64,000 bases of DNA, from NCBI RefSeq assembly GCF_900249755.1, contig NZ_LT976853.1:1023091-1087090 (forward strand), written 5' to 3'. Shown in pieces: positions 15,974 to 35,871 of the stretch. Position 1 is the first letter of the stretch. Every line of letters begins with the position of its first letter. A program made the position numbers and the translations under genes. Source of the DNA: Cupriavidus taiwanensis (GTDB lineage Bacteria; Pseudomonadota; Gammaproteobacteria; Burkholderiales; Burkholderiaceae). Under the pieces are notes generated by a model. The model was not told the origin of the DNA. It was given only the letters and a program-made list of their open reading frames with translations, and ran no database searches.

Positions 15974-16049
15974 GATGGACTCCCCGTCAGTATGGCTGTC
16001 CAAGCCCTGCTTCTTCTGTCTCTGCGCTGCGGCAACCGCGGCCGGCGCT

Positions 16050-17027: not shown

Positions 17028-17072
17028 GTGTAGCTCCCCCGGATGGATCGTATGGGTATGGGCCCTGGCAGG

Positions 17073-18443
17073 TCAGACTTCGTAGCGCTTGGCCGGGTCG
17101 TAGGTGTCATCCGGCAGCCCCACGCCGAACACGCGCAGCCGCTCGGCAAACTTCGGATACACCCCGGTGGCGCGGAAGTTGCCGCGCACGGTGCCGTCCT
17201 TGTCGACCCCGGTGCGCTGGAACGTGAAAATCTCCTGCATGTTGATGATGTCGCCCTCCATGCCGGTGATCTCCTGGATGCTGACGATCTTGCGGCGCCC
17301 GTCGGTCATGCGCGCGGCCTGCACGATCACCGTGATGGCCGAGGCGATCTGCTGGCGCATGGCCTTGGCCGGCATGGTCAGGCCCGCCATGCTGACCATG
17401 TTCTCCAGCCGCGTCAGCGCATCGCGCGGGGTGTTGGCGTGGATGGTGGTCAGCGAGCCTTCATGGCCGGTGTTCATCGCATTGAGCATGTCCAGCGCCT
17501 CGCCGCCGCGCACTTCGCCCAGGATGATGCGGTCCGGGCGCATGCGCAGCGCGTTGCGCACCAGCGCGCGCTGCGTGATCTCGCCCTTGCCTTCGATATT
17601 GGGCGGGCGCGTTTCCAGCCGCAGCACGTGCGGCTGGCGCAGCTGCAGTTCCGCCGCGTCTTCGATCGTGACCACGCGCTCGTCTTCCGGGATAAAGCCC
17701 GACAGGATGTTCAGCAGCGTGGTCTTGCCGCTGCCGGTGCCGCCGGACACCAGCACATTGACCTTGGCCTGCGACAGCGCCTGCAGCAGCTGCGCCATCG
17801 GCGGCGTCAGGCTGCGCAGGCTGACCAGGTCGGCTACCTGCAGCGGATTCACGGCAAAGCGGCGGATCGACAGCAGCGGCCCGTCGATGGCCGACGGCGG
17901 AATGATGGCGTTGACGCGCGAGCCGTCCGGCAGGCGCGCGTCGACCATCGGGCTGGTTTCGTCGATGCGGCGGCCGACGCGCGACACGATCTTCTCGATC
18001 ACCTTCATCAGGTGCGCGTCGTCATAGAACAGGACGTCGGTCAGTTCCAGCTTGCCGCGCCGCTCCACGTAGGTCTGGCGCGCGGTGTTGACCAGGATGT
18101 CCGACACCGTCGGGTCCTTCAGCAGCGGCTCGAGCGGGCCGAAGCCGAACATTTCGTCGTAGATCTCGACGGTCAGCTGGCGGCGCTCGTTGTCGTTGAG
18201 CAGCACCTTCTGCTCGTCGACGATCAGGTTGACCAGCGCGGTGATCTCCTGGCGCACCTGTTCCTGCGGATAGCGTGCCAGCCGCTCCAGCTCGACGCGG
18301 TCGAGCACGGTCTCGTGCACATCGCGCTTGAGCTGGTGGTAGCCGCCCGAGACGGAGGCTGCCGAGGTCGCAAACTGGATCGCGGCGTGGCCGTTGGCGG
18401 TGAAGGCAGGCTCGGCATTGGCCAGTTGTTCTCGGATCGACAT
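17073..18443 (-). CDS. tadA: Tad pilus secretion ATPase TadA (CpaF)
   Basis: 456 residues of the type II/IV secretion ATPase family. Walker A is [12 protein letters not shown], followed by the Asp box [11 protein letters not shown], Walker [16 protein letters not shown] with the Arg/Glu pair, and a His-box region [20 protein letters not shown]. It energises Flp pilus assembly from the cytoplasm. I chose ATG 18443 ([14 protein letters not shown]) because AGGAGT lies just upstream; the longer frame to 18590 overlaps tadZ and is Pro/Arg-rich noise. Confidence 0.94.
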
Positions 18444-18502
18444 GGTGGACTCCTCGTTAATCGGGTGCGGTGGACCGTATCGGTCGGCGGCAATCGGTGG
18501 AT

Positions 18503-19696
18503 TCAGGTGCTCTTCGCGCGCAGCATCAGCCGGCGCAGCGGCGATGCGGTTTCGGTCCGGCTGCGCCGCTCCGCCTCGGCCGGGGTGCACAGCTGCGTGG
18601 CCATCGCCTGCAGCGCGCGCGTCATGGCGCTGCGCCGGCTCAGCTTGGCGACGGGCTCGCCATGGCTGATGGCCTCGTCCACCGCGGAGGGGTCGTCGGG
18701 CAGCGTGAACGCGGCCTTCATGCCGAAGATCTCTTCCATGGTCGCGCGCGGCATCTCATGCTTGCGGCCGGTGCGGTTGAGCACCAGGCGGACCTTGTCG
18801 GCGGGGTAGTGCAGGGCACTGAGGATATCGAGCAGCCTGCGGCCCGGACGACCGAAGGAAATCGCGGGTTCGGCCACCACGCAGATGCGGTCGCTGTGGT
18901 CCAGCACGCTGATCGACAGCGGGTCGATGCTCTGGCCCAGGTCGAAGATCACGAAGTCGTAGGCGGGCTGCACCACCGACAGGATCCACTCCAGCTTGTC
19001 CTTCTGGATCTGGCTGGCCTTGACCGGGTCGGATGCGCCCGCGAGCATGTCGAAGCCGTTGTCCACGTGCACCAGGCAGGCCTCGAGGAAGGCGCTGTCC
19101 ATGCGGTCGATCTGATTGCAGATCTCGGGCAGCGTGGACGGCGGGACCTTGTCGCTGACGATATAGGTCAGGTCGCCGAAGTGGCGGTTCAGGTCGACCA
19201 CCAGCACGCGCTTGCCAAGATGGCGCGCCAGTGCGTCGCCCAGGTTGGCCGCGATGAAGCTGGTGCCGGCGCCGCCCTTGCACGAGATCAGCGAAATCAG
19301 CTGCCCGTGGTCCTGCGCGCGCGGCACGTGCGACGCCTCCACGCGCCGCAGCGCCTCTGCCAGCTGGCCTTTGTCCAGTGGCCACGGCAGTACGTCGCGG
19401 ATGCCGGCGCGCATCGCCTTGATCAGTACCTCCGAGCCGGGTGCCGGCGTGATCAGGATGCAGGGCAGTTCGGGATGCTGCTGGCGCAGCAGTTCGATCG
19501 CCTGCATCTGCTGCGCGTTGATGGCGGGCAGTTCCAGGATCAACAGGTCCGCCATGCGCAGCCGGCTGGCGTGCAGCGGGAAGCGGCCCAGGCCCTCTTG
19601 CAGCGTCATGGCCTGGAAGTTGCCCACTGCGGCGCTGACCCGGTGGATCTCGGCAAGCCGGTCGGCGTCTTCGGAAACGATCAGAATTCTGAGCAT
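18503..19696 (-). CDS. tadZ: Tad pilus localisation protein TadZ (CpaE-like)
   Basis: 397 residues. The N-terminal about 120 residues are a degenerate receiver-like domain (MLRILIVSEDADRLAEIH...LLILELPAI). A MinD/ParA-like ATPase domain follows. Its P-loop SCKGGAGTSFIAANLG lacks the usual second Lys (GGxGKT becomes GGAGTS), as is common in TadZ. Members of this family position the Tad machine at the pole. AGGAG lies 6 bases before ATG 19696; an ATG at 19714 would add only six residues. Confidence 0.9.
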   Translation of the reverse strand: MLRILIVSEDADRLAEIHRVSAAVGNFQAMTLQEGLGRFPLHASRLRMADLLILELPAINAQQMQAIELLRQQHPELPCILITPAPGSEVLIKAMRAGIRDVLPWPLDKGQLAEALRRVEASHVPRAQDHGQLISLISCKGGAGTSFIAANLGDALARHLGKRVLVVDLNRHFGDLTYIVSDKVPPSTLPEICNQIDRMDSAFLEACLVHVDNGFDMLAGASDPVKASQIQKDKLEWILSVVQPAYDFVIFDLGQSIDPLSISVLDHSDRICVVAEPAISFGRPGRRLLDILSALHYPADKVRLVLNRTGRKHEMPRATMEEIFGMKAAFTLPDDPSAVDEAISHGEPVAKLSRRSAMTRALQAMATQLCTPAEAERRSRTETASPLRRLMLRAKST

Positions 19697-19719
19697 GATG
19701 TGCTCCTGGTTCATGCGCG

Positions 19720-20178
19720 CTAGTTGCAGATCTTGCCGCCGGTGGAAGAGTCAAGGCTCTCCCGCGGCAGCGTGGTCGAGAACGGGGGCAGCGACACCGT
19801 GATCGGCACCACCGGGATGAAGGTCTTGACCGAGACGTTGGCCACGCTGACGGTGACGGAGCGGCAGGTATTGCGCGCGGTATCGGCGTCGGCGTCGCAG
19901 CCGCTCGGTTCGAAGGCGACCTGGATATTGGTGGCCTTCAGCAAAGGCATCAGGTGCGTCATCCTGTCCTTGATGGCGGTGTCGGTGACGTCGCACACCA
20001 CCGCGATGCGCGCCCCCAGCCGGGTGGCTTCGCCGGCGGTGTTCCAGTAGAACAGCACGCGCGAAAACTCGGCGATGCCGATCAGCAGCATGAAGAAGAT
20101 GCTTGCCACCAGGGCGAACTCGATGGCGGCGGCGCCGCTCTGGCGCAAGCGCGGACGCGGGGCGCGGATCGGGCTCAT
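19720..20178 (-). CDS. TadE/TadF-like minor pseudopilin (second copy)
   Basis: 152 residues. The N terminus is RQSGAAAIEFALVASIFFMLLIGIAEFSR, with Gly followed by AAAIEF: a TadE-type pseudopilin signal with Glu at +5 of the mature form, then one hydrophobic helix and a periplasmic domain with three Cys. Its start overlaps the stop of the upstream tadE gene by 4 bases. It is most like TadF by position. The prepilin peptidase at 26652-27185 should process it. Confidence 0.85.
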   Translation of the reverse strand: MSPIRAPRPRLRQSGAAAIEFALVASIFFMLLIGIAEFSRVLFYWNTAGEATRLGARIAVVCDVTDTAIKDRMTHLMPLLKATNIQVAFEPSGCDADADTARNTCRSVTVSVANVSVKTFIPVVPITVSLPPFSTTLPRESLDSSTGGKICN

Positions 20179-20684
20179 AGCACCTGCCTCATGACGGTTG
20201 CGATATCGGAGAACGCCAGCGCGCCCACGTTGAGGTAGCTTTGCATCGGCGCGTAGGTGAAGCCCGAGATCTTCACTTCCACCAGGTTGATGGTCCCCGC
20301 CGGCGTGCCGGAGCTGCCCCCGCCCTCGTAGATGGCGACGTTGGCGAACTGCTTGCCGGCGCAGCCGGTCGAGTCGACGCGGTCGCAGACCACCACCATG
20401 GATGTGCTGAGACCTTTCACCAGCGCCGTGCCGCCGCAAGTGGTCTTGCCGTAGACGGCGACGCATTTCGCCTGCTCGACCGGGTAATTCGCCTCGCTGG
20501 GCGCGTATTGCGACAAAAAGCGCGCGGCGTCGCGCGTGGCCTTGGCCAGCGCGTTGTACTGGTAGATGGCGCGCCCGTACTCCGCCACCCCGGTCACCAG
20601 CATCAGCAAGGGCACCAGGACCAGCGCGAACTCCACGGCGACCGCGCCGCGTCGATTGCACCTGCGTTGCCAGCATCGCTTCAT
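20175..20684 (-). CDS. tadE: TadE-family minor pseudopilin
   Basis: 169 residues. The basic start MKRCWQRRCNRRG is followed by AVAVEFALVLVPLLMLVTGVAEY. This is the TadE prepilin signal (cleavage after Gly, Glu +5) and a single membrane helix, then a periplasmic domain with paired Cys. ATAGGAG precedes the ATG. It lies between tadG and the second TadE/F-like gene. Confidence 0.9.
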   Translation of the reverse strand: MKRCWQRRCNRRGAVAVEFALVLVPLLMLVTGVAEYGRAIYQYNALAKATRDAARFLSQYAPSEANYPVEQAKCVAVYGKTTCGGTALVKGLSTSMVVVCDRVDSTGCAGKQFANVAIYEGGGSSGTPAGTINLVEVKISGFTYAPMQSYLNVGALAFSDIATVMRQVL

Positions 20685-20693
20685 GATCGGCTC

Positions 20694-21950
20694 CTATTGC
20701 ACCAGCACCGGCACGCGCGGGCCGTTGCCCGTGCTGGAGCCGGGCACACCCTGGGTCGCGCACGGGCTGGTGGGATCCTTCGAATCGCCGAGGTACTCGA
20801 TGTAGGTCACATCCTTTGCGCTGGGCTCCTGCATCGGCTGCACCATCAGCATGCAGGCCCACGAGGCCACCGTGGCCTGCTTGGACGAGGCCAGCTCGTT
20901 GCAGTCCACCACCGGCACCTGTACCAGCCTGCGGTCGGCGCCCGCCTGGTGGACCTGCCGGGTCGACGGCGAGCCCTTGGTGACCAGTCCGGCGTTGGCG
21001 TCGGTCTGGTACGGCTCGTTGGCGGCGCGCTTCTGGATGAAGTCCGGGTAGGCGTTGCCGCCGTTGGGCGGATTCCATGACTTGACGCTGTAGGCATAGC
21101 CGGCAAAGTCGGGGGCGCCATGCTCCGGCCCCTTGTAAGAGCCGGTATAGAGCCCGAAGCGGGTATTCCACGCCGGTATCAGCGACGAAATGCTGCCCGG
21201 CTGGCCGACCTTGGATCCCACCACCGACATGTCGCACTGTCCGGAACCGGCAAGGAGTTCCGCCAGTTCGGAGGCGCCGCCTCCCGGGGGCGACAGGTCG
21301 GCCCAGCCGAAGCTGCCGGGACCGTACGGGTCCTTCTCGTCCTTCGAGCGGATCCAGTCGCCGCGGTTGTACGCGGTCCTGACCGGGTTCGCCGTCTGCG
21401 GCGTGCAGATGTAGACCGGGATGGCGCACGCGGTCTGCGCGCTGGTGGTGGTGGCGACCGCCATGGCATTGACGGTGCTGGGCTGGATATTCATCCCCGG
21501 CAGCGCATTGAGGACCTGGATGAACCAGTGCGCAATGCCGGTGCGCTCGGCCGTGCATCTGACGTACTTGATCTTGTCGAGCGCGTAGGGGACCTTGTCC
21601 TTGGTGTAGAAGGTGTTGTCCGGGCTGTCGCTGTACGAGACGTTGAGGTTCTCGAACATTTCCACGGCCTTGCCCTGGAACAAGGCCGCGTTGCTCGAGC
21701 CGGTGGTGAGGCCGGCCGCTTCGGAGACCAGCAGCGGCGTGGCCCCGGTGACGTCGCGCGCGGCCGCCAGCGCGCAGGCATCGACGCTGTTCTGCAGCTC
21801 GCTCTTGGTCACGAAGAGCTTGCCCAGGTCGAGCGCCAGCCCGACAAAGCCGATCAGCACGGCCAGCGACAGCCCGACGATGATGGCCACTGCGCCACGC
21901 TGGCGCTTGCGCCGCGTCAGCGTGGCTCGTGCAAAGCCCGATGCAGACAT
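20694..21950 (-). CDS. tadG: Tad pilus assembly protein TadG
   Basis: 418 residues. It begins with a basic stretch and RQRGAVAIIVGLSLAVLIGFVGLALDLGKLFVTKSELQN, which contains the TadG-type N-terminal membrane helix and the Flp-assembly TadG motif. The long extracytoplasmic C-terminal region has many Pro/Gly and several Cys and shows no clear von Willebrand domain. TadG is thought to help anchor or assemble the Flp pilus. GGGGGAGG lies before the ATG. Confidence 0.86.
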   Translation of the reverse strand: MSASGFARATLTRRKRQRGAVAIIVGLSLAVLIGFVGLALDLGKLFVTKSELQNSVDACALAAARDVTGATPLLVSEAAGLTTGSSNAALFQGKAVEMFENLNVSYSDSPDNTFYTKDKVPYALDKIKYVRCTAERTGIAHWFIQVLNALPGMNIQPSTVNAMAVATTTSAQTACAIPVYICTPQTANPVRTAYNRGDWIRSKDEKDPYGPGSFGWADLSPPGGGASELAELLAGSGQCDMSVVGSKVGQPGSISSLIPAWNTRFGLYTGSYKGPEHGAPDFAGYAYSVKSWNPPNGGNAYPDFIQKRAANEPYQTDANAGLVTKGSPSTRQVHQAGADRRLVQVPVVDCNELASSKQATVASWACMLMVQPMQEPSAKDVTYIEYLGDSKDPTSPCATQGVPGSSTGNGPRVPVLVQ

Positions 21951-21974
21951 GATCGCCTCCCCCGGTTCCGGTGC

Positions 21975-22313
21975 TCAGCGGCCGCCGCCGCCACCCATGC
22001 CCACGCCGCCATAGCCGCCGGCGCCGAAATCGATGGTCATCGACGGCGCCCCGCCTTGCTGGCCCTTCGACAGCGAGCGGTCGAAGTTCTTCATCGCCGC
22101 CACGGCGGTCTTGCCGTCGGTGCCGGTGACGGTCGGCAGGCCGGCCGGTGCGTCCGGGTTGATGATCTGCATCTGCGTGACGGTGGCCAGCGCGACGCCG
22201 CGCTGAGCGTCCCAGACGGGCGTCGTGGTCATGCAGGCTGACAGTCCGAGGCAAGCCAGTCCGCCCAGTACCACCACAGTGGCGCCGCGCGAAAGCTTCA
22301 GGGTCTTGTTCAT
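21975..22313 (-). CDS. Tad-locus lipoprotein, Gly-rich C terminus
   Basis: 112 residues. The signal peptide ends in the lipobox LSAC, so Cys27 should be lipidated. A short middle domain follows, and the end is Gly-rich (GAGGYGGVGMGGGGGR). It lies between the secretin and tadG. By position it could be a pilotin or assembly lipoprotein for the secretin, but it does not show a recognisable TadD TPR pattern. Function unknown. Confidence 0.8.
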   Translation of the reverse strand: MNKTLKLSRGATVVVLGGLACLGLSACMTTTPVWDAQRGVALATVTQMQIINPDAPAGLPTVTGTDGKTAVAAMKNFDRSLSKGQQGGAPSMTIDFGAGGYGGVGMGGGGGR

Positions 22314-22346
22314 GGTCGTTCTCCGGTTCTGCTGGTGCGCGGCGGA

Positions 22347-24206
22347 TCAGTTGCCGCCCGATGCGGTGCGGCCGGCGGTGGCCGTGGCCCTTGCCTGAGC
22401 CAGGCGGGCAGCGGTGGCTTCGATGCGGGCAATGCGCGCGGCGGTGTCTTCGGCGGGTGGTGTCGCCACCGTGCTGCTGCGGGCCGGTGCCGCCGGCGCG
22501 GGCAGGGACGGACGCGGGCTGGCTGCCGCCGCGGGTTGCGCGGTAGCCGGCGCCGGATCCTCCAGCGGCCTGCCGGTCGGCACGGCCGAGACCGCAGTCG
22601 CCGGCGCGCCTTCGCTGCGCGGTGCCGCGGGCGGTGCGGCCGGCACCGCGGCCGGCGCGGCGGGCTGCGACGGCGCCGGGGCGGGCTGGGTCGGACGCTT
22701 GCCGTCGCCTTCCATATTGCCCATGAAGTACAGCGACAGCGGGTTGGGCGTGGAGAAGCTGTCGGTCGGCAGCGGGTAGTTGCTGGTCTGCATCGGCTTG
22801 ACCAGGCGCGGCGTGATGATGAACACCAGCTCGGACAGGTCCTGCTGGTATTGCGTGCTGCGGAACAGCGTGCCCAGCACCGGCACTTCGCCGGCGCCCG
22901 GCAGCGCCTTGAGCGAGCCGCGCGCGCTGTCGGTCAGCAGGCCGCCGATGGCGAAGCTCTCGCCGTCGCGCATCTGCACGGTGGTCGAAGCGCGGCGGGT
23001 GGTGATGACCGGCAGGATGGTCTGGCCTGCCAGCGTGCCGCCACGGATGGTGGCGCCCGTGGGCGAGAGCTCGGACACTTCCGGCGCAACCTTCAGGTGG
23101 ATGCGGCCATTGGCCAGCACCGTGGGCGTGAACTTCAGGCCGACGCCGAACTCTTCTTCCTGCAGCGTGACGGTGCCCGCGCCGTTCAGCACGTTGGCCT
23201 GCGCCACCGGGATATAGATCTTGCCGCCCGCCAGGAAGCTCGCTTCCTGCCCGCTGATGGTAACGAGGTTCGGCTCGGCCAGGATCTTGACCAGGCTGTC
23301 GTTCTTCTGCGCGTCGAGAGCGAACTCGAACGGCCGGTTGTTGGCCTTGCTGCCGAAGATCGCTGTCGATGCACCGGTCAGCAGCGACGTCACCAGGCCG
23401 CCGCTCCAGGAGCCGAAGCCGCCCTGCAGGTTCACCGCGGAACCGAGCTGGTTCAGCAGCGTCTTGGAGACTTCGGCCACCTTCACTTCCAGCATCACCT
23501 GCTGCGGCGTGTCGACCGACAGCATGTTCAGCACGCTGCCCTTCTTGTTGCCGTCGCCGCCCTGCGCCGCATTGGCGTAGGCCTGCGCGATCTCCATGGC
23601 CTGCTGCGCCGCCTGCGCGTTGGTGACACTGCCGGTCAGCACGAGGTTGTCCGCCGCCGTGGTCACGCGGATGCCGGGCTCGCCGGGCAGCAGCTGGCCG
23701 AGCGAGGTCTGCAGCCCGCCGGCATCGGCGTTGACCACCACGTTGATGATGCTGCAGCTGCCGCTGCGGCCCTGCACGATCATGTTGGTGGTGCCCACCG
23801 TGCGGCCCAGCACATAGAGCGTCTGCGGCGCCACCATGGTGGCCTGCACCACGCCCGGGTTGCCCAGGGTACGGTTGCGCACCGGCTCCTGCAGCGTGAT
23901 CAGCTGCGACTTGCCGACCGGAACGACCACGCTCGATTCACTGCGGATGGCGCCCGTGCAGTTGGGCCCGCGCGCCTCCGCGGCCGGCGCGGCCGGTGCC
24001 TGCGCGGCCGGCGCGGCGCCGGGCGTCATGCTGATGGTCATCTGCATCGGGCCCTGGGGCGCCCTGGCGGCGGCCGGTGCTGTGGCCTTGGTCAGGTTGC
24101 CGGCCTCGACTGCGGCCTGCGCCGCGGCGGCAAGAGGCGTGCACAGGATGGCGGCCAGCACCAGGATGCGGGTGCCGCCGGCGGCTTCGGATCGTGTCTG
24201 GTTCAT
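22347..24206 (-). CDS. rcpA: Tad outer-membrane secretin RcpA (CpaC)
   Basis: 619 residues. Signal peptide (LVLAAILCTPLAAAAQA), then the BON/pilus N-domain (VPVGKSQLITLQEPVRNRT with NMIVQGRSGSCSIINVVV), then the secretin domain (PQQVMLEVKVAEVSKTLLNQLG ... VPVLGTLFRSTQYQQDLSELVFIITPRLV), and a Pro/Ala-rich tail of about 120 residues. It forms the outer-membrane channel for the Flp pilus. ATG 24206 has GGGGGAG upstream; the frame extends to 24281 without a better start. The long Pro/Ala tail is unusual for the family. Confidence 0.93.
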   Translation of the reverse strand: MNQTRSEAAGGTRILVLAAILCTPLAAAAQAAVEAGNLTKATAPAAARAPQGPMQMTISMTPGAAPAAQAPAAPAAEARGPNCTGAIRSESSVVVPVGKSQLITLQEPVRNRTLGNPGVVQATMVAPQTLYVLGRTVGTTNMIVQGRSGSCSIINVVVNADAGGLQTSLGQLLPGEPGIRVTTAADNLVLTGSVTNAQAAQQAMEIAQAYANAAQGGDGNKKGSVLNMLSVDTPQQVMLEVKVAEVSKTLLNQLGSAVNLQGGFGSWSGGLVTSLLTGASTAIFGSKANNRPFEFALDAQKNDSLVKILAEPNLVTISGQEASFLAGGKIYIPVAQANVLNGAGTVTLQEEEFGVGLKFTPTVLANGRIHLKVAPEVSELSPTGATIRGGTLAGQTILPVITTRRASTTVQMRDGESFAIGGLLTDSARGSLKALPGAGEVPVLGTLFRSTQYQQDLSELVFIITPRLVKPMQTSNYPLPTDSFSTPNPLSLYFMGNMEGDGKRPTQPAPAPSQPAAPAAVPAAPPAAPRSEGAPATAVSAVPTGRPLEDPAPATAQPAAAASPRPSLPAPAAPARSSTVATPPAEDTAARIARIEATAARLAQARATATAGRTASGGN

Positions 24207-24271
24207 TTTGAATCTCCCCCCGGAGAGGCTGTGTTGCAGCTCAGAATTCGTGGATGCGTGGGTGCAGGCGC

Positions 24272-25111
24272 TCAGAAGCATTCGATGCCGCCCTGCATGC
24301 CTGCCAGCACGCCGATGCAGTTGCCGCGGGCGGGCGCTGCCGCCACCGTGCGCGTCTTGACCACGGTGCGGGTCTCGGTCTTTGTCACGACCTTGGCCGG
24401 TGCCTCGGGTGCCTTGCCCAGCAGCGTTCCCTTGGTGGCGCCGCCGGTGTTGATGTCGGCCACGTCGAGCTGGTTGCGCAGCACCAGCGAGAGCGTGCCC
24501 ACGCTGCGCGCCACGTCGAGCTTCTCGGCCTGGTCGGGCGTGACTTCGAGGGTCACGGCGTTGACCACCTTGGGCTGGGTTTCGTCGCGGCTGACCTGCT
24601 GCGCGACCGCCAGCACCAGGATCTTCTCGAGCACGATCTTCGAGATGCTGCTGTTCTGGTTGCTCTTCGCTTCTTCGTTGGTGTTGACGATCACGTCGAC
24701 GTAGTTGCCCGGCAGCGCGAAGCCGGCCACGCCCACCACGTCGTTGACGCGGACCGTGATGGCGCGCTTGCCGTCGTTGATCACCGCCGACAGCCCGCCC
24801 TTGGTGCCGACCGGTGCCAGCTTGGCGTCCAGGATCGGTTCGCCGCGCTGCAGGCTGGTGCGGACCACGCGACCTTCCAGCGCCTTCAGGTCAGTGAAGG
24901 CACCGGGCGGCACGCTGCCCGCCGGCCAGCTGACCATGCGCAGTTGCCCGCCATTGAGCGGCTGGCCCAGGTTGAGGTCGTTGGCCGCCACCACCACCTG
25001 CTTCACGGAGCCGGACGACTGCTGCACCAGCCATCGCGACGCCGATACCACCGCCGCCACGCCGGCGACCAGGGCGATCAGCAGCATCAGGATTGCGCGT
25101 GTGTTCTTCAT
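24272..25111 (-). CDS. cpaB: Flp pilus assembly protein CpaB (RcpC)
   Basis: 279 residues. One N-terminal membrane segment (ILMLLIALVAGVAAVVSA), then an SAF domain (VVAANDLNLGQPLNGGQLRMVSWP...RVVRTSLQRGEPIL), then the RcpC/CpaB C-terminal domain (VNDVVGVAGFALPGNYVDVIV). It is periplasmic and lies next to the secretin gene, as usual. GGGGAGAG precedes the ATG. Confidence 0.92.
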   Translation of the reverse strand: MKNTRAILMLLIALVAGVAAVVSASRWLVQQSSGSVKQVVVAANDLNLGQPLNGGQLRMVSWPAGSVPPGAFTDLKALEGRVVRTSLQRGEPILDAKLAPVGTKGGLSAVINDGKRAITVRVNDVVGVAGFALPGNYVDVIVNTNEEAKSNQNSSISKIVLEKILVLAVAQQVSRDETQPKVVNAVTLEVTPDQAEKLDVARSVGTLSLVLRNQLDVADINTGGATKGTLLGKAPEAPAKVVTKTETRTVVKTRTVAAAPARGNCIGVLAGMQGGIECF

Positions 25112-25155
25112 GATGACTCTCCCCTACAGTTGTCCCGAGTATTCGGTAGTGCAGT

Positions 25156-26574
25156 TCAGCTGGCGGCGCGGTGATCGTCCGCCCATCGGTGAGCGGCGCC
25201 CAGATGCGGCATCGGTTCGGCCGGAGTGCGCAGTCCGTAGTAGCTCTGCCACGCCGACACCAGCCCGGCCTCGGTGACCTGCGTGGCCTGCCCGTGGTAG
25301 CGCACCCCGGAATCCACCAGGCGCAGCAGGTCGCGCGGAATGCACGCCAGCAGCGGCGTATCGCTGGCGTAGTGAAGGCTGTCGACCAGGAAATCGAACA
25401 CCGCGTCGGTGCTGGTCAGCCCGAATTCGGCGACGGTGCGGTGATAGATCTCGCGGTAGTCGTCCACCGACAGCGGCCCCACATAGAGCTTGCTGCCCAG
25501 CCGGCGCAGGAAGGCATCGTCGCCGAGCGCCGTCGGCTCGAGATTGGTAGAGAACACCGGCCAGACGTCGAACGGAACGGAGAAGCGCACGCCCGTATGC
25601 AGCGTGAACATGTCGACCGAGCGGTCCAGCGGCACGATCCACCGGTTCAGCAGGTCGGCGACGCCGACCAGTTGCCGGCCCAGGTCGTCGACGATGTAGA
25701 TGCCGTTGTTGGCCTTCATGTGCGGGGGCGCCTGGTAGAAGCCGGAGGCGCGGTCATAGCGCAGGTCCAGCATCGACAGCGTCAGCTCGCCGCCGGACAG
25801 CACCACCGGGCGGTGGCACAGCGTCCAGCGCCGATCCAGCGAGCGGTGCGCCAGCGAGGCTTCGCTGTCGTCGAAGGGCACATGGACCAGCGGGTCGAAC
25901 ACCTGGACGATCTCGCCGCCCACGGTGATCGCGTGCGGCACCGGCACCGCGCCGGGCAGCAGCGTGCCCAGCCGTTGTGCCAGGTAGGTCTTGCCGCTGC
26001 CGGCCGGTCCGTAGATCATCAGCGCGCGGCAAGTGTTCAGCGCCATGCCGATCGAATCGAGCAGCTGCACCGGGATCACCAGGTCATGGAAGGCCGCGGT
26101 GACGTCGGCCTTGGTCACGCTGGCGTGGTTGACGGAGTGATGCCTGACGGCGTCGATATACGCGTCGAGCGTGACCGGCGCCGTGCCGACATAGCTGCAG
26201 CGCGCCGCGGCTTCGGCCGCGCGGGCATAGCCTGCATCGGTCAGGCGGAAACGCACATCCAGGTCGCTGGCGCCGCGGTGCGCGATCTCCAGCAGGCGCT
26301 CGCGCACGGCGACGGCGGCGATCTCATTGACCACCAGTGCCGGCAGCTTGAGCGTGTCGGTCAGTACCGCCAGCGTGACGGTGCGGTGCTGGTAGGCGGA
26401 CTTCATCAGCAGCCCGAGCAGCTGCGCGATCTCAAGCCCGGTATCGGCGATCGTGCGCGGCAGCACGTGCCACGGCGGCAGCGGCGGCGTGCCATGCTCG
26501 GCGCGAACATTCCTGCCGGTCGCGACGGGCTCGAGGAGCCGTGGTGCGTGACCTGTGTCGTGATGCTCGTTCAT
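25156..26574 (-). CDS. AAA+ ATPase of the Tad locus, function unknown
   Basis: 472 residues. The Walker A is IYGPAGSGKTYLAQRL at about residues 187-202. The Walker B/sensor region includes NNGIYIVDDLGRQ and VFSTNLEP. It thus resembles a MoxR/AAA-type ATPase rather than the secretion ATPase TadA. The N-terminal 150 residues look like a winged-helix domain (LLGLLMKSAYQHRTVTLAVLTDTLKLP...LRFRLTDAGYARA-like). It lies between cpaB and the prepilin peptidase gene, inside the Tad operon, and is not part of the classical Tad set. A remodelling or regulatory role in pilus assembly is an inference. Confidence 0.82.
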   Translation of the reverse strand: MNEHHDTGHAPRLLEPVATGRNVRAEHGTPPLPPWHVLPRTIADTGLEIAQLLGLLMKSAYQHRTVTLAVLTDTLKLPALVVNEIAAVAVRERLLEIAHRGASDLDVRFRLTDAGYARAAEAAARCSYVGTAPVTLDAYIDAVRHHSVNHASVTKADVTAAFHDLVIPVQLLDSIGMALNTCRALMIYGPAGSGKTYLAQRLGTLLPGAVPVPHAITVGGEIVQVFDPLVHVPFDDSEASLAHRSLDRRWTLCHRPVVLSGGELTLSMLDLRYDRASGFYQAPPHMKANNGIYIVDDLGRQLVGVADLLNRWIVPLDRSVDMFTLHTGVRFSVPFDVWPVFSTNLEPTALGDDAFLRRLGSKLYVGPLSVDDYREIYHRTVAEFGLTSTDAVFDFLVDSLHYASDTPLLACIPRDLLRLVDSGVRYHGQATQVTEAGLVSAWQSYYGLRTPAEPMPHLGAAHRWADDHRAAS

Positions 26575-26651
26575 TGCCTTCCCCCGTTCCTGATCAGTTC
26601 GTTCTTGTTGCCGCAGCGCCCCGCTGCTGGCGGTGCGCCGCCTGGCTTGCG

Positions 26652-27185
26652 TCATGTGCCTGCGAACAGCATGGTCAGCGTTCCCGCGGCAATCGCCACG
26701 CCGTAGGGCATGGAGCCGGCGGAAATCCCGGCCTGGGGCCGCGCGGAGCCGGCGCCGGGCGTCACGGAGGCTTTCAGCATGTGTCCCACGCGGGCCAGGG
26801 TGGAGCGCCCTTGTCCGGTCGCAAATACCTGGACCAGGGCCCACAGCCCGCCGATCACGAAGGTGGCCAGCGCAATCTTCAGGGCCATGCCGACGCCCAG
26901 CCAGGCGCCCACGGCGGCCATCAGCTTGACGTCGCCGGCCGCCATGCCGCGCAGCAGGTAGAAGGGCAGGAACAGCACAAGGCCCACCATCCAGCCCGAC
27001 AGCCACGCGAGCGCGCCGCCGGCCAGGCCGTGCATGGCTGCCATCACGGGCAGCGCGGCGATCCAGGCGCCGAAGGTCAGCCAGTTGGGAATGCGCCGCC
27101 GCTGCAGGTCGATGGCCGCGGCGGTGAGCACGATGCCGATCGTGGCAGGGCCGATGAAGGGCGCGAGGGCGGTGGCGGCTTGCAT
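26652..27185 (-). CDS. tadV: Flp prepilin peptidase TadV (CpaA), A24 family
   Basis: 177 residues with several membrane helices. The two catalytic aspartates of aspartic prepilin peptidases are visible: Asp26 in AAAIDLQRRRIPNW and Asp85 in the GxGD-type motif AAGDVKLM. It is a short form without the N-methylation domain, typical of Tad loci. It cleaves Flp and TadE/F prepilins in the inner membrane. It lies directly after the two flp genes. Confidence 0.92.
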   Translation of the reverse strand: MQAATALAPFIGPATIGIVLTAAAIDLQRRRIPNWLTFGAWIAALPVMAAMHGLAGGALAWLSGWMVGLVLFLPFYLLRGMAAGDVKLMAAVGAWLGVGMALKIALATFVIGGLWALVQVFATGQGRSTLARVGHMLKASVTPGAGSARPQAGISAGSMPYGVAIAAGTLTMLFAGT

Positions 27186-27244: not shown

Positions 27245-27418
27245 TTAAGGCATCTTGCCGGCGATCCGCTCGTACATGCCTTGCACGCTCTCGCCGAGCG
27301 TCACCACGGTGCCGAAAATGGCCATGGCGATCAGGCTGCCGAGCAATGCGTATTCAATCGACGTGACACCGTGGTCGTCGCGCAGAAAGCCGGTTGACCT
27401 GGCGATGAGCTTTGACAT
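27245..27418 (-). CDS. Second Flp-family prepilin (57 residues)
   Basis: A short gene from ATG 27418 to TAA 27245. The N terminus MSKLIARSTGFLRDDHG is followed by VTSIEYALLGSLIAMAIFG: a Flp cleavage site after Gly17 with the Glu22-Tyr23 pair of type IVb pilins and one hydrophobic helix. The C terminus is short (MYERIAGKMP). It lies 59 bases before tadV and 93 bases after flp1. It may be a minor or alternative pilin subunit. Confidence 0.88.
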   Translation of the reverse strand: MSKLIARSTGFLRDDHGVTSIEYALLGSLIAMAIFGTVVTLGESVQGMYERIAGKMP

Positions 27419-27511
27419 CTGGTGTCTCCGGTGTTTGTGTTGTCTGTATTCGGTTGGGCCGCGTGCCGCATGACCGCCCGGAGCCGGGCAGCCATGCGGG
27501 CTCGCCGGCTA

Positions 27512-27700
27512 TCAGGCGGGCAGGGCGTTGGTGAGGGTGTCGCCGATGAAGTCGAAGATGATGTTCAGGTTCGTGCCGATCAGGCGGACCGAAACGATGA
27601 TCACGACGGCAATCAGCGCTGCAATCAGGCCGTATTCGATGGCGGTCACGCCGTCTTCGTCGCGGATGAATTGCTTCAGCATGGTGGTCAGGTTTTGCAT
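27512..27700 (-). CDS. flp: Major Flp prepilin
   Basis: 62 residues. The basic leader is followed by DEDG and VTAIEYGLIAALIAVVIIVSV: cleavage after Gly17, Glu22-Tyr23, then the hydrophobic assembly helix. The remainder ends ...GDTLTNALPA. It is the first gene of the 14-gene operon and probably the main pilin. AAGGAG is 8 bases before the ATG. The nearest sigma-54-type promoter is at 28123-28137, which would give a leader of about 410 bases. Confidence 0.95.
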   Translation of the reverse strand: MQNLTTMLKQFIRDEDGVTAIEYGLIAALIAVVIIVSVRLIGTNLNIIFDFIGDTLTNALPA

Positions 27701-28122
27701 GACTAACTCCTTGGGTTGGGAACAAGCACTGCAGGACTACGGAACTGCGATCGGGTGGATGGCGCCGGGTATCAGCGCCTGGAACCCCGGCGGCAGGGCG
27801 GCGCGCAGATCGCGCAGGCATGGAACGGCCACCTGCCGGAACCGCCGTGTTCACCGCGCGGGCTGCGTGACTGCAGCCGGCGTAGCGCCGACGCATGCAT
27901 GCAACGTGCGGCGTGCTGGACATGGCCTGCGCGCGCCCTGCAACGGAACGGCGCGCCGCCGGTGCCCCTGGCAGCGGCAGCGTGGCCGGTGTTCCGGTGT
28001 GGCATCGCAAGTTGGCGCACGGCTGGCATGGTCAGGCTCCCCGTATCGTTCTTGGTCAATGCCAGCGAGCGTTGCGCCGGCATTGCGGCAACCAGGACTG
28101 CGGTACCGCATGCCTGGCATAG

Positions 28123-28137
28123 GCAAACGGCGGGCCA
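28123..28137 (-). promoter_or_regulatory. Candidate sigma-54 promoter for the Tad operon
   Basis: On the minus strand: TGGCCCGCCGTTTGC. It has the obligatory GG and GC spaced by 10 bases and matches TGGCACG-N4-TTGC at all but one constrained position. It points to flp, about 420 bases downstream. The nearest inverted repeat (28234-28251) begins about 97 bases upstream, the usual enhancer distance. Confidence 0.55.
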
Positions 28138-28233
28138 GGCCACCGGGAACCGTTGTGCCACAAGGCTTTGCGGGTAGCGCCGCGCGGTCGCCGCGGGCCC
28201 GGCGGGGCCGCGCGAGGCATTCCGGCCGGGCTT

Positions 28234-28251
28234 CGTTGCTGGGTGGAAACG
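28234..28251. promoter_or_regulatory. Inverted repeat, candidate activator site (gap A, copy 1)
   Basis: CGTTGC-N6-GAAACG, one mismatch between arms. It is the repeat nearest the candidate sigma-54 promoter of the Tad operon. Confidence 0.5.
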
Positions 28252-28478
28252 CGGCGCGGACAAGCCATTCCACAGGTCGCTACGAATGCCCTGGATCGCA
28301 CAATGTGCCCATGTGCGCGGGTTGATGCGCGACGGTCTGCAACGTCATCCAAAAGCATGAGAGCGCGATTGCACGGCGGGGCGGCATGCGCCACAAGCCG
28401 TAGTCTTGCTGCGTGCCCTGACCGCATAAGCCGCTGCCGGACAGACTGACGGATGAGGAGGGTCCCTTGAAAGCGCGG

Positions 28479-28496
28479 CGTTTCCGGTTCGAAACG
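28479..28496. promoter_or_regulatory. Inverted repeat, candidate activator site (gap A, copy 2, perfect)
   Basis: CGTTTC-N6-GAAACG with perfect 6-base arms. An identical pair of arms with the same spacer length recurs at 30874-30891. The spacer sequences differ, so this is a binding motif rather than a duplicated DNA segment. Confidence 0.62.
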
Positions 28497-28593
28497 TCGC
28501 GACCGGGAACGGGGTTGCGCGAAGGCCGGCGGAGTTACCGCGCATAGCCGCGACGCCCTTGTGTGGCAAGGCTTGCAGCCTTGCGCGGCCGCG

Positions 28594-28611
28594 TGATTCA
28601 TCGCGGAAACA
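28594..28611. promoter_or_regulatory. Inverted repeat, near copy (gap A, copy 3)
   Basis: TGATTC-N6-GAAACA. It shares the left arm TGATTC with the copy at 30977-30994. Confidence 0.42.
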
Positions 28612-28672
28612 TGGGGCGCGAGACGGCGGATCATCGCTGCAGTTCCGGACTTGCACGCGGGCGGCCGCAGCT

Positions 28673-28690
28673 CGTATCCCGGGGGAACCG
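28673..28690. promoter_or_regulatory. Inverted repeat, near copy (gap A, copy 4)
   Basis: CGTATC-N6-GAACCG, one change in each arm relative to the consensus. Confidence 0.38.
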
Positions 28691-28964
28691 GAGCATGGGA
28701 ACGCTTGGGTTCATGCAGCCTTCGCGTCCTGGCTTGCGCTGCCGCAGGCCGATGGAGCGGGGCTTGGGAAAGGTGTCGCGATGGTGTTGGCGACGTGCGC
28801 CGCAGGGCTGCGGCAACCGCGGGATGCAGACGGTGGCGCGGACCCTGCGGATGGCGCGGGCCTGGCGGGCGCGCAGGGATCCCACGCAGCCCGCCCTGTC
28901 GCGGGCAGAGAGGTATGGCGCGACCTGCCGCAGCCATGGCGGACTCCGGCCATGGCGCGTCGGG

Positions 28965-29000
28965 CCGTGCGCGTATCCGGCTAGCCGGATACGCGCACGG
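28965..29000. repeat. 36-base perfect palindrome
   Basis: The arms begin CCGTGCGCGTATCCGG and meet at CTAG; all 18 bases of each arm match. It starts 18 bases after the stop of the minus-strand membrane-protein gene. There is no T tract on either side, so it is not a standard terminator, though the extruded hairpin could still slow polymerase. Two GCCATGGC palindromes 16 bases apart lie just beyond it. Confidence 0.9.
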
Positions 29001-29017
29001 GCGGACAGCAGGCGGTC

Positions 29018-30487
29018 CTAGCGTTCGCGGACATAGGCGACGGCCACATCATCCTGGTGGACTTTGCGCCAGCCCGGCAAGTCATCGATCCACTTCGATG
29101 CAGGACTCCCGGGTTCAAGAACCGCCCAGCCGATCTGGTATTGCTCGAACATGGCCTGCAATACGTCGGCATCGCCCGCATAGGCTTTCATATACCTTCG
29201 CACGAAGGCGTCGCCGTAGAGATCGGCGCGGCCGTCGATGAGCGGGGCAATGCCGGAGAAGATCAGGTAGCCCCCGAAGTTGTAGCTGTTGAACACCGGC
29301 CCGCCACCCCCTGCCGCCATGGCCGCGCTGACGGCCTCGCGCGGCTGTATGCGGCGATGGTCGTGCTCGATGCCGTTGGCAAGCAGGACGATGCTGGTCA
29401 TGAACAGTGCCAGGCATAACGCGGTAAGCGTGCGTAGCAGCGGCGGCGACAGGTTCAGCTTGATCTCCGGACGGATTGCCGCGCGCAGCTGGGGCCCGAC
29501 GCTTGGCATCAGCAACAGCGGGGCCAGCAACCCGAGCAGTTCGGCATAGCGCGCCGAGACCAGGGTCAGGTGGACCAGCCCGAAGCACATCACGATGCGC
29601 ATCGCCGGCAGGCGGAAGCCGAAATAGAGCGCACCGAACAGCACAAAGCCAAGCCACAGCTCGATGGGCTGGACCAGGCGGAAATCCGGCGCCTTCCATT
29701 CGCCGATGACGCTGAGCGTATAGCTCATGCCGGAGACGTGGAAGGGAAAGAGCAGGCCGTCCACGCCGTTTGGCGTCAGCAGGCCCGCCAGCACGGTGAG
29801 TGCAAGGAAAGGGGCCCATGCCTTTGCGCTGCGGACCGGCTGCTTGTCGGCAAGGACGGCCTCGGCGGCCAGCGCGCCTGCCAGGCCGATGCCGAGCAGG
29901 AAGCTGCCGTGCAGGTTGGCCCACGCCAGCATCACGAGCAGCAGCCACAGGCCCGGCCGCTTGCCTTGCTCGCGCGCAAGCACCAGCTGCGCGGTCCAAA
30001 TCACCATCAGCGGCCAGGCCATGGCGTGCGGGCGGGCAACCAGGTGCTGGGCCAGCGTCAGGAAGGTGAGCAGGGTTGCGCTGAACGCGTGCAGCGGTTC
30101 GATATAGCGCAGCAGGAACCGCAGCAGCACGGTCAGCGTGACGGCGGTCGCCAGCGCGGTGACCAGTACCGGCCCCGCCCAGCCGAACCAGGCATGGGAA
30201 GCGGCAAGGATAACTTCGGCGAGCCATTCATGAGGGACCCATTTGGCGCCGTGAAACGAGAAGGAGAAGGGATCGGTGGAGGGTACCGCCTGGTTGGCAA
30301 GGATCCATTTGCCGGCGGCGATATGCCAGAACGTATCGGCATCCACCAGCAATCGGCCGCCGGCAAATGACAGCAGCGAGAACACGCCGAGCCCGTACAG
30401 CGCTGGCCAGAACCAGCGTTGCCTGGCGCACTGCCGGAGCAGGCTGTCCGAGCCGGCTGCCCCGACCCAAGTGGTATTGGTTTTCAT
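29018..30487 (-). CDS. Polytopic membrane protein, probable glycan-related transferase
   Basis: 489 residues with about ten hydrophobic helices. Near the N terminus are the acidic loop motif LLVDADTFWHIAAGKWIL and STDPFSFSFHGAKWVPHEWLAE. These resemble the first periplasmic loop (Asp-rich, DPF/HEW) of lipid-linked-sugar-using GT-C type proteins. The C-terminal soluble part (FNSYNFGGYLIFSGIAPLIDGRADLYG) is periplasmic-looking. I used ATG 30487 because upstream in-frame residues are not membrane-like. A strong sigma-54-type promoter lies about 87 bases upstream. A role in surface glycan synthesis or pilin glycosylation is inferred. Confidence 0.7.
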   Translation of the reverse strand: MKTNTTWVGAAGSDSLLRQCARQRWFWPALYGLGVFSLLSFAGGRLLVDADTFWHIAAGKWILANQAVPSTDPFSFSFHGAKWVPHEWLAEVILAASHAWFGWAGPVLVTALATAVTLTVLLRFLLRYIEPLHAFSATLLTFLTLAQHLVARPHAMAWPLMVIWTAQLVLAREQGKRPGLWLLLVMLAWANLHGSFLLGIGLAGALAAEAVLADKQPVRSAKAWAPFLALTVLAGLLTPNGVDGLLFPFHVSGMSYTLSVIGEWKAPDFRLVQPIELWLGFVLFGALYFGFRLPAMRIVMCFGLVHLTLVSARYAELLGLLAPLLLMPSVGPQLRAAIRPEIKLNLSPPLLRTLTALCLALFMTSIVLLANGIEHDHRRIQPREAVSAAMAAGGGGPVFNSYNFGGYLIFSGIAPLIDGRADLYGDAFVRRYMKAYAGDADVLQAMFEQYQIGWAVLEPGSPASKWIDDLPGWRKVHQDDVAVAYVRER

Positions 30488-30573
30488 GGCGTCTCGCGAT
30501 GGCTTCGATGATGGCCCGTTCCCGTCGACCCGGCGCGCACTTCCCCAATGCGGCACGCGGGCGCGTTGCGTGG

Positions 30574-30590
30574 TTGCAAGGACTGCGCCA
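30574..30590 (-). promoter_or_regulatory. Candidate sigma-54 promoter for the membrane-protein gene
   Basis: On the minus strand: TGGCGCAGTCCTTGCAA. It has GG-N10-GC and the full TTGCAA end, the best sigma-54 match in the window. The start codon lies about 87 bases downstream. The inverted repeat at 30675-30692 begins about 85 bases upstream, and the perfect copy at 30874 about 285 bases upstream. Confidence 0.62.
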
Positions 30591-30674: not shown

Positions 30675-30692
30675 CGTTTCCGCTTCGAATCG
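30675..30692. promoter_or_regulatory. Inverted repeat, near copy (gap B, copy 1)
   Basis: CGTTTC-N6-GAATCG, one mismatch. It is placed like an enhancer for the sigma-54-type promoter at 30574-30590. Confidence 0.5.
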
Positions 30693-30873: not shown

Positions 30874-30891
30874 CGTTTCAGGTGAGAAACG
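30874..30891. promoter_or_regulatory. Inverted repeat, perfect copy (gap B, copy 2)
   Basis: CGTTTC-N6-GAAACG, both arms perfect. It lies almost midway between the two divergent glycan genes. Confidence 0.62.
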
Positions 30892-30976: not shown

Positions 30977-30994
30977 TGATTCAACCTGGAAACG
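30977..30994. promoter_or_regulatory. Inverted repeat, near copy (gap B, copy 3)
   Basis: TGATTC-N6-GAAACG, with a perfect right arm. It shares its left arm with the copy at 28594-28611. Confidence 0.45.
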
Positions 30995-33462: not shown

Positions 33463-34839
33463 TCAGCCCTGCACGCAGATCAACCCCAGGTCTCCCTTCT
33501 TCACCTGCAGCTTGTAATCCCGCATCAACCGGAACAACGTCACCCGCGAGATCCCCAGTTCGGCGGCCACGTCGATCAGCCGTTCATGGTGGCGCTGCAG
33601 CGCTTCGACGATGGCGTTCTGTTCGGCGGCCTCGCGGATCGCGGCGAGCGTCAGCGGGCGCTCGTCCGCGGGCGCGGCCAGTTCCAGGTCTTCGGGCTGG
33701 ATCACGCCGTCTTCGCACATCGCGGCGGCGTGGCGGATGCGGTTGATCAGCTCGCGCACGTTGCCGGGCCAGGTATGCAGCTGGATTGCGCGCAGCGCCA
33801 TCGGCGAGAAGCCGCGGATGCGCGCCGGCGACTGCTTGCGCACGGTCTCCAGCACATGTTCGGCGATCAGCAGGATGTCGCTGCCGCGCTCGCGCAGCGG
33901 GGGCTGGCGCACGCGCAGCACGCACAGCCGGTGGTACAGGTCGCCGCGGAAGCGCTCGGCGGCGATCGCGGCTTCCAGGTCGACATGGGTAGCGGAGATG
34001 ATGCGCACATCGACTTCGACCGACTCGGTGCCGCCCAGCCGCTCGATGCGACCGGTCTCCAGGAAGCGCAGCAGGCTGGTCTGGCTTTCGATCGGCATGT
34101 CGCCGATTTCATCGAGAAACAGCGTGCCGCCCTGCGCCATCTCGATGCGGCCGGGCTTGCGCTTGGTGGCGCCGGTGAACGCGCCGCGCTCATAGCCGAA
34201 CAGCTCGGACATCAGCAGCGTGGGCGGGATCGCCGCGCAGTTGACCGCGATGAACGGGCGCGACGCCCGCACCGAGGCGCGGTGGATGGCCTGCGCGGCG
34301 AGTTCCTTGCCGGTGCCGGACTCGCCCGAGATCAGCACCGGCGTATCCCAGCGCGACACCTTCTCGATGCCGCGGAACAGCGATTGCATCGCCGGGCAGC
34401 TGCCGATCATGCCATCGGGACGGCCTGTGCGCGCGGGCTCGTGCTGTGCGCCGGGCCGCAGCCGGGCCATGCCCAGCGCATGCCCCAGGGCCTCGGCCAG
34501 GCGCGGGTGCTCGAGCGGGGCGGTGTGGTAGTCGACGAAGTACAGGCCGAGCAGCCGGCGCGCGCTTTCGCTCAGCGCATGCTCGCCGGCGACGATGCCG
34601 ATCCAGCCGATGTGCCGCTGCGCCAGCCACGGCTCGAACGCCTCCAGTTCGGCATCGCCGAAACCGCCTTGCAGGTCCAGCAGCGCGGCCAGCGGCTGGT
34701 TGCCTGGAGGCAGCGCGTGCAGGTCCTGCAGGTTCGATGCGAAACTGATTTTCCAGCCACGCTGGGCGAACAGCCGGCACAGCGAGGCGTCGTGGTGCTG
34801 CGACAGGTACAGCAGCGGGCGGTTGGCGTACGCGCTCAT
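33463..34839 (-). CDS. Sigma-54-dependent activator (VpsR/NtrC-like)
   Basis: 458 residues. The N-terminal about 125 residues resemble a receiver domain with Asp55 in LLDL but no acidic pair at the usual place, so phosphorylation is doubtful. The AAA+ domain has Walker A GESGTGKE (172-179), the sigma-54-contact loop GAFTGA (219-224) and Walker B FLDEIG. The C-terminal Fis-type helix-turn-helix is DVAAELGISRVTLFRLMRDY. It activates sigma-54 promoters from distant sites. The gene heads a unit with the methyltransferase and gtrA. Its own upstream gap carries a sigma-54-type promoter, so autoregulation is possible. It is the best candidate to bind the repeats in the nearby gaps. Confidence 0.92.
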   Translation of the reverse strand: MSAYANRPLLYLSQHHDASLCRLFAQRGWKISFASNLQDLHALPPGNQPLAALLDLQGGFGDAELEAFEPWLAQRHIGWIGIVAGEHALSESARRLLGLYFVDYHTAPLEHPRLAEALGHALGMARLRPGAQHEPARTGRPDGMIGSCPAMQSLFRGIEKVSRWDTPVLISGESGTGKELAAQAIHRASVRASRPFIAVNCAAIPPTLLMSELFGYERGAFTGATKRKPGRIEMAQGGTLFLDEIGDMPIESQTSLLRFLETGRIERLGGTESVEVDVRIISATHVDLEAAIAAERFRGDLYHRLCVLRVRQPPLRERGSDILLIAEHVLETVRKQSPARIRGFSPMALRAIQLHTWPGNVRELINRIRHAAAMCEDGVIQPEDLELAAPADERPLTLAAIREAAEQNAIVEALQRHHERLIDVAAELGISRVTLFRLMRDYKLQVKKGDLGLICVQG

Positions 34840-34874
34840 GATATTTCCCCGGATTTTTGTTTTTAGCGGAACTG

Positions 34875-34895
34875 GCGGCCGGCATGGCCGGCCGC
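34875..34895 (-). other. Hairpin in the leader of the activator gene
   Basis: GCGGCCGGC and GCCGGCCGC form a 9-bp stem around a 3-base loop, 36 bases upstream of the activator start codon. It has no T tract. It could affect translation or mRNA stability; this is inference. Confidence 0.45.
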
Positions 34896-35320
34896 TCGCT
34901 CCGTTGGCTCTAAGGCTTGCGCCGGCGCATCATGCCGATGCGCGCGGCGCGCTCCCCAATTTCTGTTGTCCACCCCGTTCTTATCCGGGCGCACCGGCAT
35001 GCCGGCCCGTCCGCTTGCTGCCTGCGAGACGCCGGATTGGCCGGCATGCCGCAGCAATCCAGGTTGCACGGACCGCTTGCTTGCGCTCGCGGCCCGTGTC
35101 CTGAATGACCTCCGCCTTGTCTTGTCGACGCCCAGGCCGTGGCCGGTGCCGATGCGGGCCAGTTCCTGCCGCGTGGCCCCCGCTTACAGCGCCAGTCCAA
35201 TTCCCGCCCTGGGTTGCGGGGTCGTCCTGAAACTGATCCTCGGCGAACGCGTGCCAGTTGTTTGCCGCTCTCGTTCCAGACTTCCCCTTTGTGCCGGGCT
35301 TCTGTTCGCGCCGACATATC

Positions 35321-35336
35321 TGCGACGAATGTGCCA
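35321..35336 (-). promoter_or_regulatory. Candidate sigma-54 promoter upstream of the activator gene
   Basis: On the minus strand: TGGCACATTCGTCGCA. The -24 half is a near-perfect TGGCAC and the GG-N10-GC spacing is right; the -12 half is TCGC rather than TTGC. It would give a leader of about 470 bases. Confidence 0.45.
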
Positions 35337-35430: not shown

Positions 35431-35853
35431 TCGCGCGGCTTTTTTATATTGCATTGCAAAAAAACTTCCCTGGGCAAAGGTACGTATCGGGCACAGCAAT
35501 GCCGGTCCCGGTGGACGGCAAGGCATTTATCGTTTGCCACACCTACCTGAATGAGGGAGTGCAAAACCGGCAACGCCGGCGATGGGGGGCTCCGATACTG
35601 CACGTCGCTGTCCTTCGAAACAGTTTCGTTTCCGATACAAGGATTTGAACTGCATACATCTTTCGCTGACATTGACGCCGCCGGAAACCTCAGCCATTTG
35701 GTGTCGCGCGCACCGTCGCAGCGGCGGCGGGATGAAGACAATCGGCGCGTTGACAGGCTTTCGCACGAAGCGCGGCTGTGGCCCTCAGCCGCTTCTCATC
35801 TGTTTGGATGGGGCGGGTAAGTTTTTCAGTGTGGCGGGCATGCCGATGCGAAT

Positions 35854-35871
35854 GGTTGCATCCGTGAAACT
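35854..35871. promoter_or_regulatory. Inverted repeat, near copy (gap C)
   Basis: GGTTGC-N6-GAAACT. The core GTTGC/GAAAC matches the copy at 28234-28251. Confidence 0.35.

Follow-up and report, generated by a model that had tools for sequence, protein, structure and literature searches.

A conserved, predicted sigma-54 promoter with putative upstream activator sites, a small gene and a probable VpsR-type activator at a Tad pilus locus of Cupriavidus taiwanensis

Organisation of the Tad locus

The window, that is, the whole 64-kb stretch of DNA analysed here, lies on contig C1 of the 5.95-Mb genome of the soil bacterium Cupriavidus taiwanensis and carries, on the minus strand, a system for the Tad pilus, an adhesive surface thread; its genes run from 27700 to 14999 (Table 1). 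Upstream of flp there are a conserved intergenic region, a gene (29018-30556) encoding a 512-aa membrane protein with no Pfam match and, 5.8 kb from flp, a gene encoding a VpsR-type bacterial enhancer-binding protein. In relatives (loci L177-L196) the interval from flp to the latter does not always hold the same genes (glycosyltransferase, methyltransferase, 512-aa membrane protein), while its regulatory ends stay constant. A 293-aa open reading frame at 28056-28937 had no Pfam match and was read as a chance ORF in GC-rich DNA. To our knowledge, how Tad pili are regulated has been worked out for few bacteria.

Table 1. Features of the Tad locus and of its upstream region (window coordinates)
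Feature	Position	Strand	Basis or remark
Other Tad genes, first part: prepilin peptidase, AAA ATPase, RcpC, secretin, TadG, TadE	within 14999-27185	-	
Other Tad genes, second part: TadZ, TadA, TadB, TadC	within 14999-27185	-	
Second Flp/Fap pilin	27248-27418	-	
flp, Flp/Fap pilin	27512-27700	-	
Previously unrecognised 85-aa gene, first in transcript	27772-28029	-	Coding selection, conserved start
Predicted 5'UTR, ~82 nt	28030-28111	-	From usual sigma-54 promoter spacing
Sigma-54 promoter of tad operon, TGGCCCG-N4-TTTGC type (-24/-12)	28123-28137	-	30/30 Cupriavidus regions and sister genus
Conserved block directly upstream of -24 box, CGCAAAGCCTTGTGGCACAA	28153-28172	-	Footprint
Activator dyad UAS3 (putative), GTTTCCACCCAGCAAC	28235-28250	-	113 bp upstream of promoter, conserved
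Second conserved dyad type (TCAT...ATGA), TCATGCTTTTGGATGA	28345-28360	-	Footprint
Conserved block TCATCCGTCAG	28446-28456	-	Footprint
Activator dyad UAS2 (putative), GTTTCGAACCGGAAAC, perfect	28480-28495	-	358 bp upstream of promoter, conserved
Activator dyad UAS1 (putative), GTTTCCGCGATGAATC	28595-28610	-	473 bp upstream of promoter, conserved
Second sigma-54 promoter-like site, TGGCGCAGTCCTTGC	30576-30590	-	Conserved in 5 genomes with same gene arrangement
Three GTTTC-type dyads	30676-30691, 30875-30890, 30978-30993	-	101, 300, 403 bases upstream of 30590
VpsR-type bacterial enhancer-binding protein with GAFTGA, probable cognate activator	33463-34839	-	
Third sigma-54-like site, TGGCACATTCGTCGC, upstream of activator gene	35322-35336	-	18/21 aligned genomes
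Weaker dyad GTATCGGAAACGAAAC upstream of activator gene	35623-35638	-	Alignment
Dyad GTTTCACGGATGCAAC upstream of activator gene	35855-35870	-	19/21 in alignment

A conserved sigma-54 site faces flp

A sequence-only reading of this DNA had described TGGCCCGCCGTTTGC as a minus-strand sigma-54 promoter of exact GG-N10-GC spacing that faces flp. The motif occurs once in the window, with this spacing, strand and orientation. It agrees with the consensus TGGCACG-N4-TTGC in 10 of 11 bases, its TGGCCCG departing from the usual A at base five. Taken alone, TGGCCCGCCGTTTGC is weak evidence, because a site scoring at least 9 on one strand appeared in 20% of shuffled versions of the intergenic region and the whole window holds 26 sites scoring at least 9 and three scoring at least 10.

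The flp loci were taken from 60 Cupriavidus genomes, and 30 upstream regions were aligned and compared. All 30 of them had a site scoring at least 9, located -357 to -518 from flp and mostly 430-448 bases ahead of it, with a chance of 3% per region for such a site in the same interval; as the genomes are related, the 30 regions are not statistically independent. Across the 30 regions the promoter bases T, GG, C, TT and GC do not vary, whereas the spacer takes 14 forms. The site reads TGGCAAAGCTCTTGC in those genomes that have diverged most, and in genome G047 no site scoring at least 8 was seen. It is this conservation of both position and sequence among the Cupriavidus regions that makes the match significant.

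Three conserved dyads lie upstream of the promoter

An inverted-repeat scan of this GC-rich stretch returned 36 pairs. Four inverted repeats, 97 to about 550 bases upstream of the promoter, had been proposed as enhancers; these distances fit the sequence, and three of the repeats are conserved dyads, but the fourth (28674-28689) is not conserved across the Cupriavidus regions and was rejected as an activator site. Footprinting of the aligned regions gave the pattern GTTTC-N6-G[AC]A[AT]C (GTTTC-N6-GAAAC-like) for the three dyads, and two or three of them are found in 29 of the 30 regions, with none in 99.7% of shuffles. A genome-wide pattern search for GTTTC-N6-GAAWC found 12 places, five of which fall inside 2.5 kb here.

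In most genomes the dyads stand 473, 358 and 113 bases from the promoter, in several about 462, 347 and 102, and in a few these distances are shifted by other amounts. The displacement seen in several genomes comes close to one helical turn, which would agree with DNA looping that requires the sites to keep to one side of the helix. The same footprint revealed three blocks of other sequence, TCATGCTTTTGGATGA, TCATCCGTCAG and CGCAAAGCCTTGTGGCACAA, which suggest sites of additional binders. Blocks resembling those at 28345-28360 and 28446-28456 are also present upstream of the activator gene.

A linked VpsR-type protein is the probable activator

The protein encoded at 33463-34839 combines an AAA+ Sigma54_activat domain (E 2e-68) with an intact GAFTGA loop motif, ELFGYERGAFTGATKRKPGRIE, a Fis-type DNA-binding domain (HTH_8, 26 bits, cut-off 22) and, at the N-terminus, a VpsR domain (Pfam PF20161, 53 bits), and aligns along most of its length with the solved VpsR chain 7v2b. 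A close orthologue of it (at least 69% identity in the aligned portion) and flp of the present type (E <1e-13) occur in an identical set of 41 of the 60 Cupriavidus genomes. The two genes share a contig in every one of these except G019, where they are on two contigs, each of them lying close to the end of its contig or on a contig that is short. The genome has a single rpoN gene (E 1.2e-68). The footprinting, this linked, co-occurring GAFTGA protein and the single rpoN strongly support the earlier proposal of a sigma-54 promoter that faces the Tad operon and has activator sites upstream, and we infer that tad expression would depend on RpoN. The linked protein is the probable cognate activator of the tad promoter, and its VpsR-like domain makes cyclic di-GMP a plausible ligand.

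Similar arrangements were found at two other places of the locus. The site preceding the 512-aa membrane-protein gene has three GTTTC-type dyads of its own, conserved in the five genomes that share this gene arrangement. Upstream of the activator gene, the third sigma-54-like site is accompanied by two dyads; this suggests that the activator gene controls itself, a weaker claim, as the layout there is less regular.

The sigma-54 promoter could be real and yet respond to another enhancer-binding protein, or to two acting jointly, with the TCAT...ATGA dyad serving a different factor. Such a reading draws on the two unlike conserved dyad types upstream and on the number of strong Sigma54_activat domains in the genome, about 15, since each of the about fourteen found in other proteins is conceivable at the tad promoter. 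We consider it unlikely, given that the linked protein and this flp type are found in precisely the same genomes and that GTTTC dyads also lie ahead of the gene for this protein, a comparison in which the linked activator was analysed in greater depth than the other Sigma54_activat proteins.

A small gene occupies the interval between promoter and flp

The leader of about 410 bases previously assigned to flp is correct as a distance, but it is not untranslated, as it holds a conserved 85-aa gene. With transcription predicted to start near 28111, about 12 bases past the GC as is usual for sigma-54 promoters, what looked like a long leader would become an ordinary UTR of ~82 nt, since this gene occupies the interval. 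Its Shine-Dalgarno sequence, GGGGAG, seven bases ahead of the ATG, is conserved together with the start codon, as are the frame and a C-terminal core, GRWPFHACAICAPP, with 15 invariant columns in 24 sequences. Median dN/dS was 0.29 in frame, whereas the two remaining sense frames gave 1.23 and 1.51 and the antisense frames 0.47-1.46; the antisense frame at 0.47 has the same variable codon position as the sense frame. Judged by this pattern of selection, 28029-27772 is a protein-coding gene.

The core of the small protein is recognisable in the 41 genomes that have this tad locus, sometimes in altered form (e.g. HAFAICGPP or GQWQFHACAACGPP). No accepted family match was obtained for the protein in Pfam, NCBIfam or PHROGs, and no annotated orthologue of its gene was found in plasmid records. 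A strict CxxC metal site was rejected, as F replaces the first Cys in three genomes. The AlphaFold model is of low confidence (pLDDT 54), with one possible helix at 33-54. The N-terminus is not hydrophobic, which points to a cytoplasmic protein, and the conserved Cys and His residues suggest a binding role; our guess is that this small protein has an accessory or regulatory part in the pilus system.

With a coding gene intervening, the sigma-54 promoter might mainly serve the small gene, flp having its own promoter either inside that gene or in the 71-nt gap that follows it, and Flp pilins are usually produced in large amounts. A scan of 27400-28760 detected neither a sigma-70-like promoter nor a terminator between promoter and flp, although sigma-70 promoter scans are weak in GC-rich genomes, and the 71-nt gap has no conserved promoter-like block except the flp Shine-Dalgarno sequence. 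We therefore regard a separate flp promoter as quite improbable. More doubtful still, indeed very improbable, is that the conserved stretch functions as leader RNA (a riboswitch or attenuator) and not as a gene: its length and conservation, and the conserved leader without a shared frame of the activator gene, would agree with this, but among the sense frames purifying selection acts in one only, the start codon and Shine-Dalgarno sequence are conserved, and the promoter-flp leader has no Rfam match.

The architecture is shared with a sister genus

Eight loci from a sister genus in the family of Cupriavidus show the same promoter-dyad architecture, together with the core of the small protein. 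Seven of these eight loci have a sigma-54 site scoring at least 10, and three have relatives of the activator (73-74% identity) upstream of flp; the small protein is mostly shorter there, ~50 aa. Among about 75 Tad loci from other genera, only one had a site scoring at least 10 in the 1.2 kb before flp. A single match of such quality is unremarkable in GC-rich DNA, but that the sigma-54 site should be due to chance is scarcely credible in view of the conservation of its position and sequence in all 30 Cupriavidus regions and in another genus.

Proposed circuit and its significance

We consider it very probable, from the comparative sequence evidence, that the Tad operon is governed by a local circuit in which a VpsR-type activator acts through three dyads on a sigma-54 promoter, with the small gene first in the transcript. 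The tad operon would be read by sigma-54 RNA polymerase from 28137-28123 and would remain silent without the activator, which, as we infer, binds the three GTTTC-N6-GAAAC dyads 113-473 bp upstream. The bound activator would then loop to the closed complex and open it by ATP hydrolysis, giving a transcript that would start near 28111 and encode, after its short UTR, the 85-aa protein followed by flp and the other Tad components. Probably the activator would drive the 512-aa membrane-protein gene too, from the promoter at 30590-30576, as well as the gene that encodes it, from 35336-35322, so forming a local surface-structure regulon.

A broader reading, on which we are evenly divided, is that this is a lineage-specific VpsR-type/RpoN regulon of Cupriavidus and its sister genus, comprising the pilus, a glycan-adjacent membrane-protein gene and the activator, in which the undescribed Cys/His small protein (core W-P-F-H-x-C-A-x-C-[AG]-P-P) would be a pilus part or a regulator. 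A complete testable circuit, with promoter, three putative sites and a probable dedicated activator, can be read across two genera, and the conserved small gene comes to light where a long leader would otherwise be assumed. Through its VpsR-like domain, the activator links the production of pili with cyclic di-GMP as a possible signal.

Comparison with known regulators

VpsR of Vibrio cholerae resembles the window protein in its PF20161 domain and through the 7v2b match. Because Vibrio VpsR acts without RpoN (PMC5552954), the name of the domain alone is no proof of sigma-54 use; unlike VpsR, the window protein retains GAFTGA, and its presumed sites lie far upstream of a -24/-12 promoter. In Burkholderia cenocepacia, BerB and RpoN control biofilm genes (PMC5552954). 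From its description, BerB, a cyclic di-GMP effector, appears similar to the window activator in being a GAFTGA enhancer-binding protein that works with RpoN on a surface structure in the same bacterial family. It differs in driving berA and, through berA, the Bep polysaccharide instead of Tad pili (PMC5552954), and it is described as having no N-terminal input domain.

In Desulfovibrio vulgaris, according to the accessible part of PMC3333781, the sigma-54-dependent regulator DVU2114 acts at Tad-like pilin genes, binding upstream of genes of the cpa/tad type at a site conserved in a few relatives. DVU2114 is, unlike the window protein, a two-component response regulator from an unrelated lineage, and that same part of the paper reports no small gene before the pilin. 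Examples of sigma-54 control of a Tad locus were found only for Desulfovibrio, in a literature search with limited coverage of subscription papers, and no report that RpoN controls tad in Cupriavidus or Ralstonia was found among what were mostly non-subscription papers; the accessible portions of the Ralstonia rpoN papers report no tad control. In Pectobacterium, as far as the available text goes, the sigma-54 activator VasH left flp/tad expression unchanged by qPCR. The regulators dedicated to other Tad loci are likewise local, with no comparable sigma-54 promoter architecture described in the portions of those papers at hand.

Additional features

A second tad locus on contig C2 (G000:C2:28187, locus L218), which is without the GTTTC dyad cluster, has a perfect 11/11 sigma-54 site, TGGCACGCGCCTTGC, ~190 bases ahead of a lipoprotein-like gene that itself precedes flp at C2:29954. 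The leader of the activator gene (34840-35320, minus strand) spans ~480 bases, the first 200 of which are strongly conserved; a hidden gene was rejected there, as no frame is open across relatives, and the leader is possibly a structured RNA or a place of further regulation. Finally, just past the end of the 29018-30556 gene there is a loopless 24-nt inverted repeat (28959-29006, 92% complementary), perhaps the terminator hairpin of that gene.
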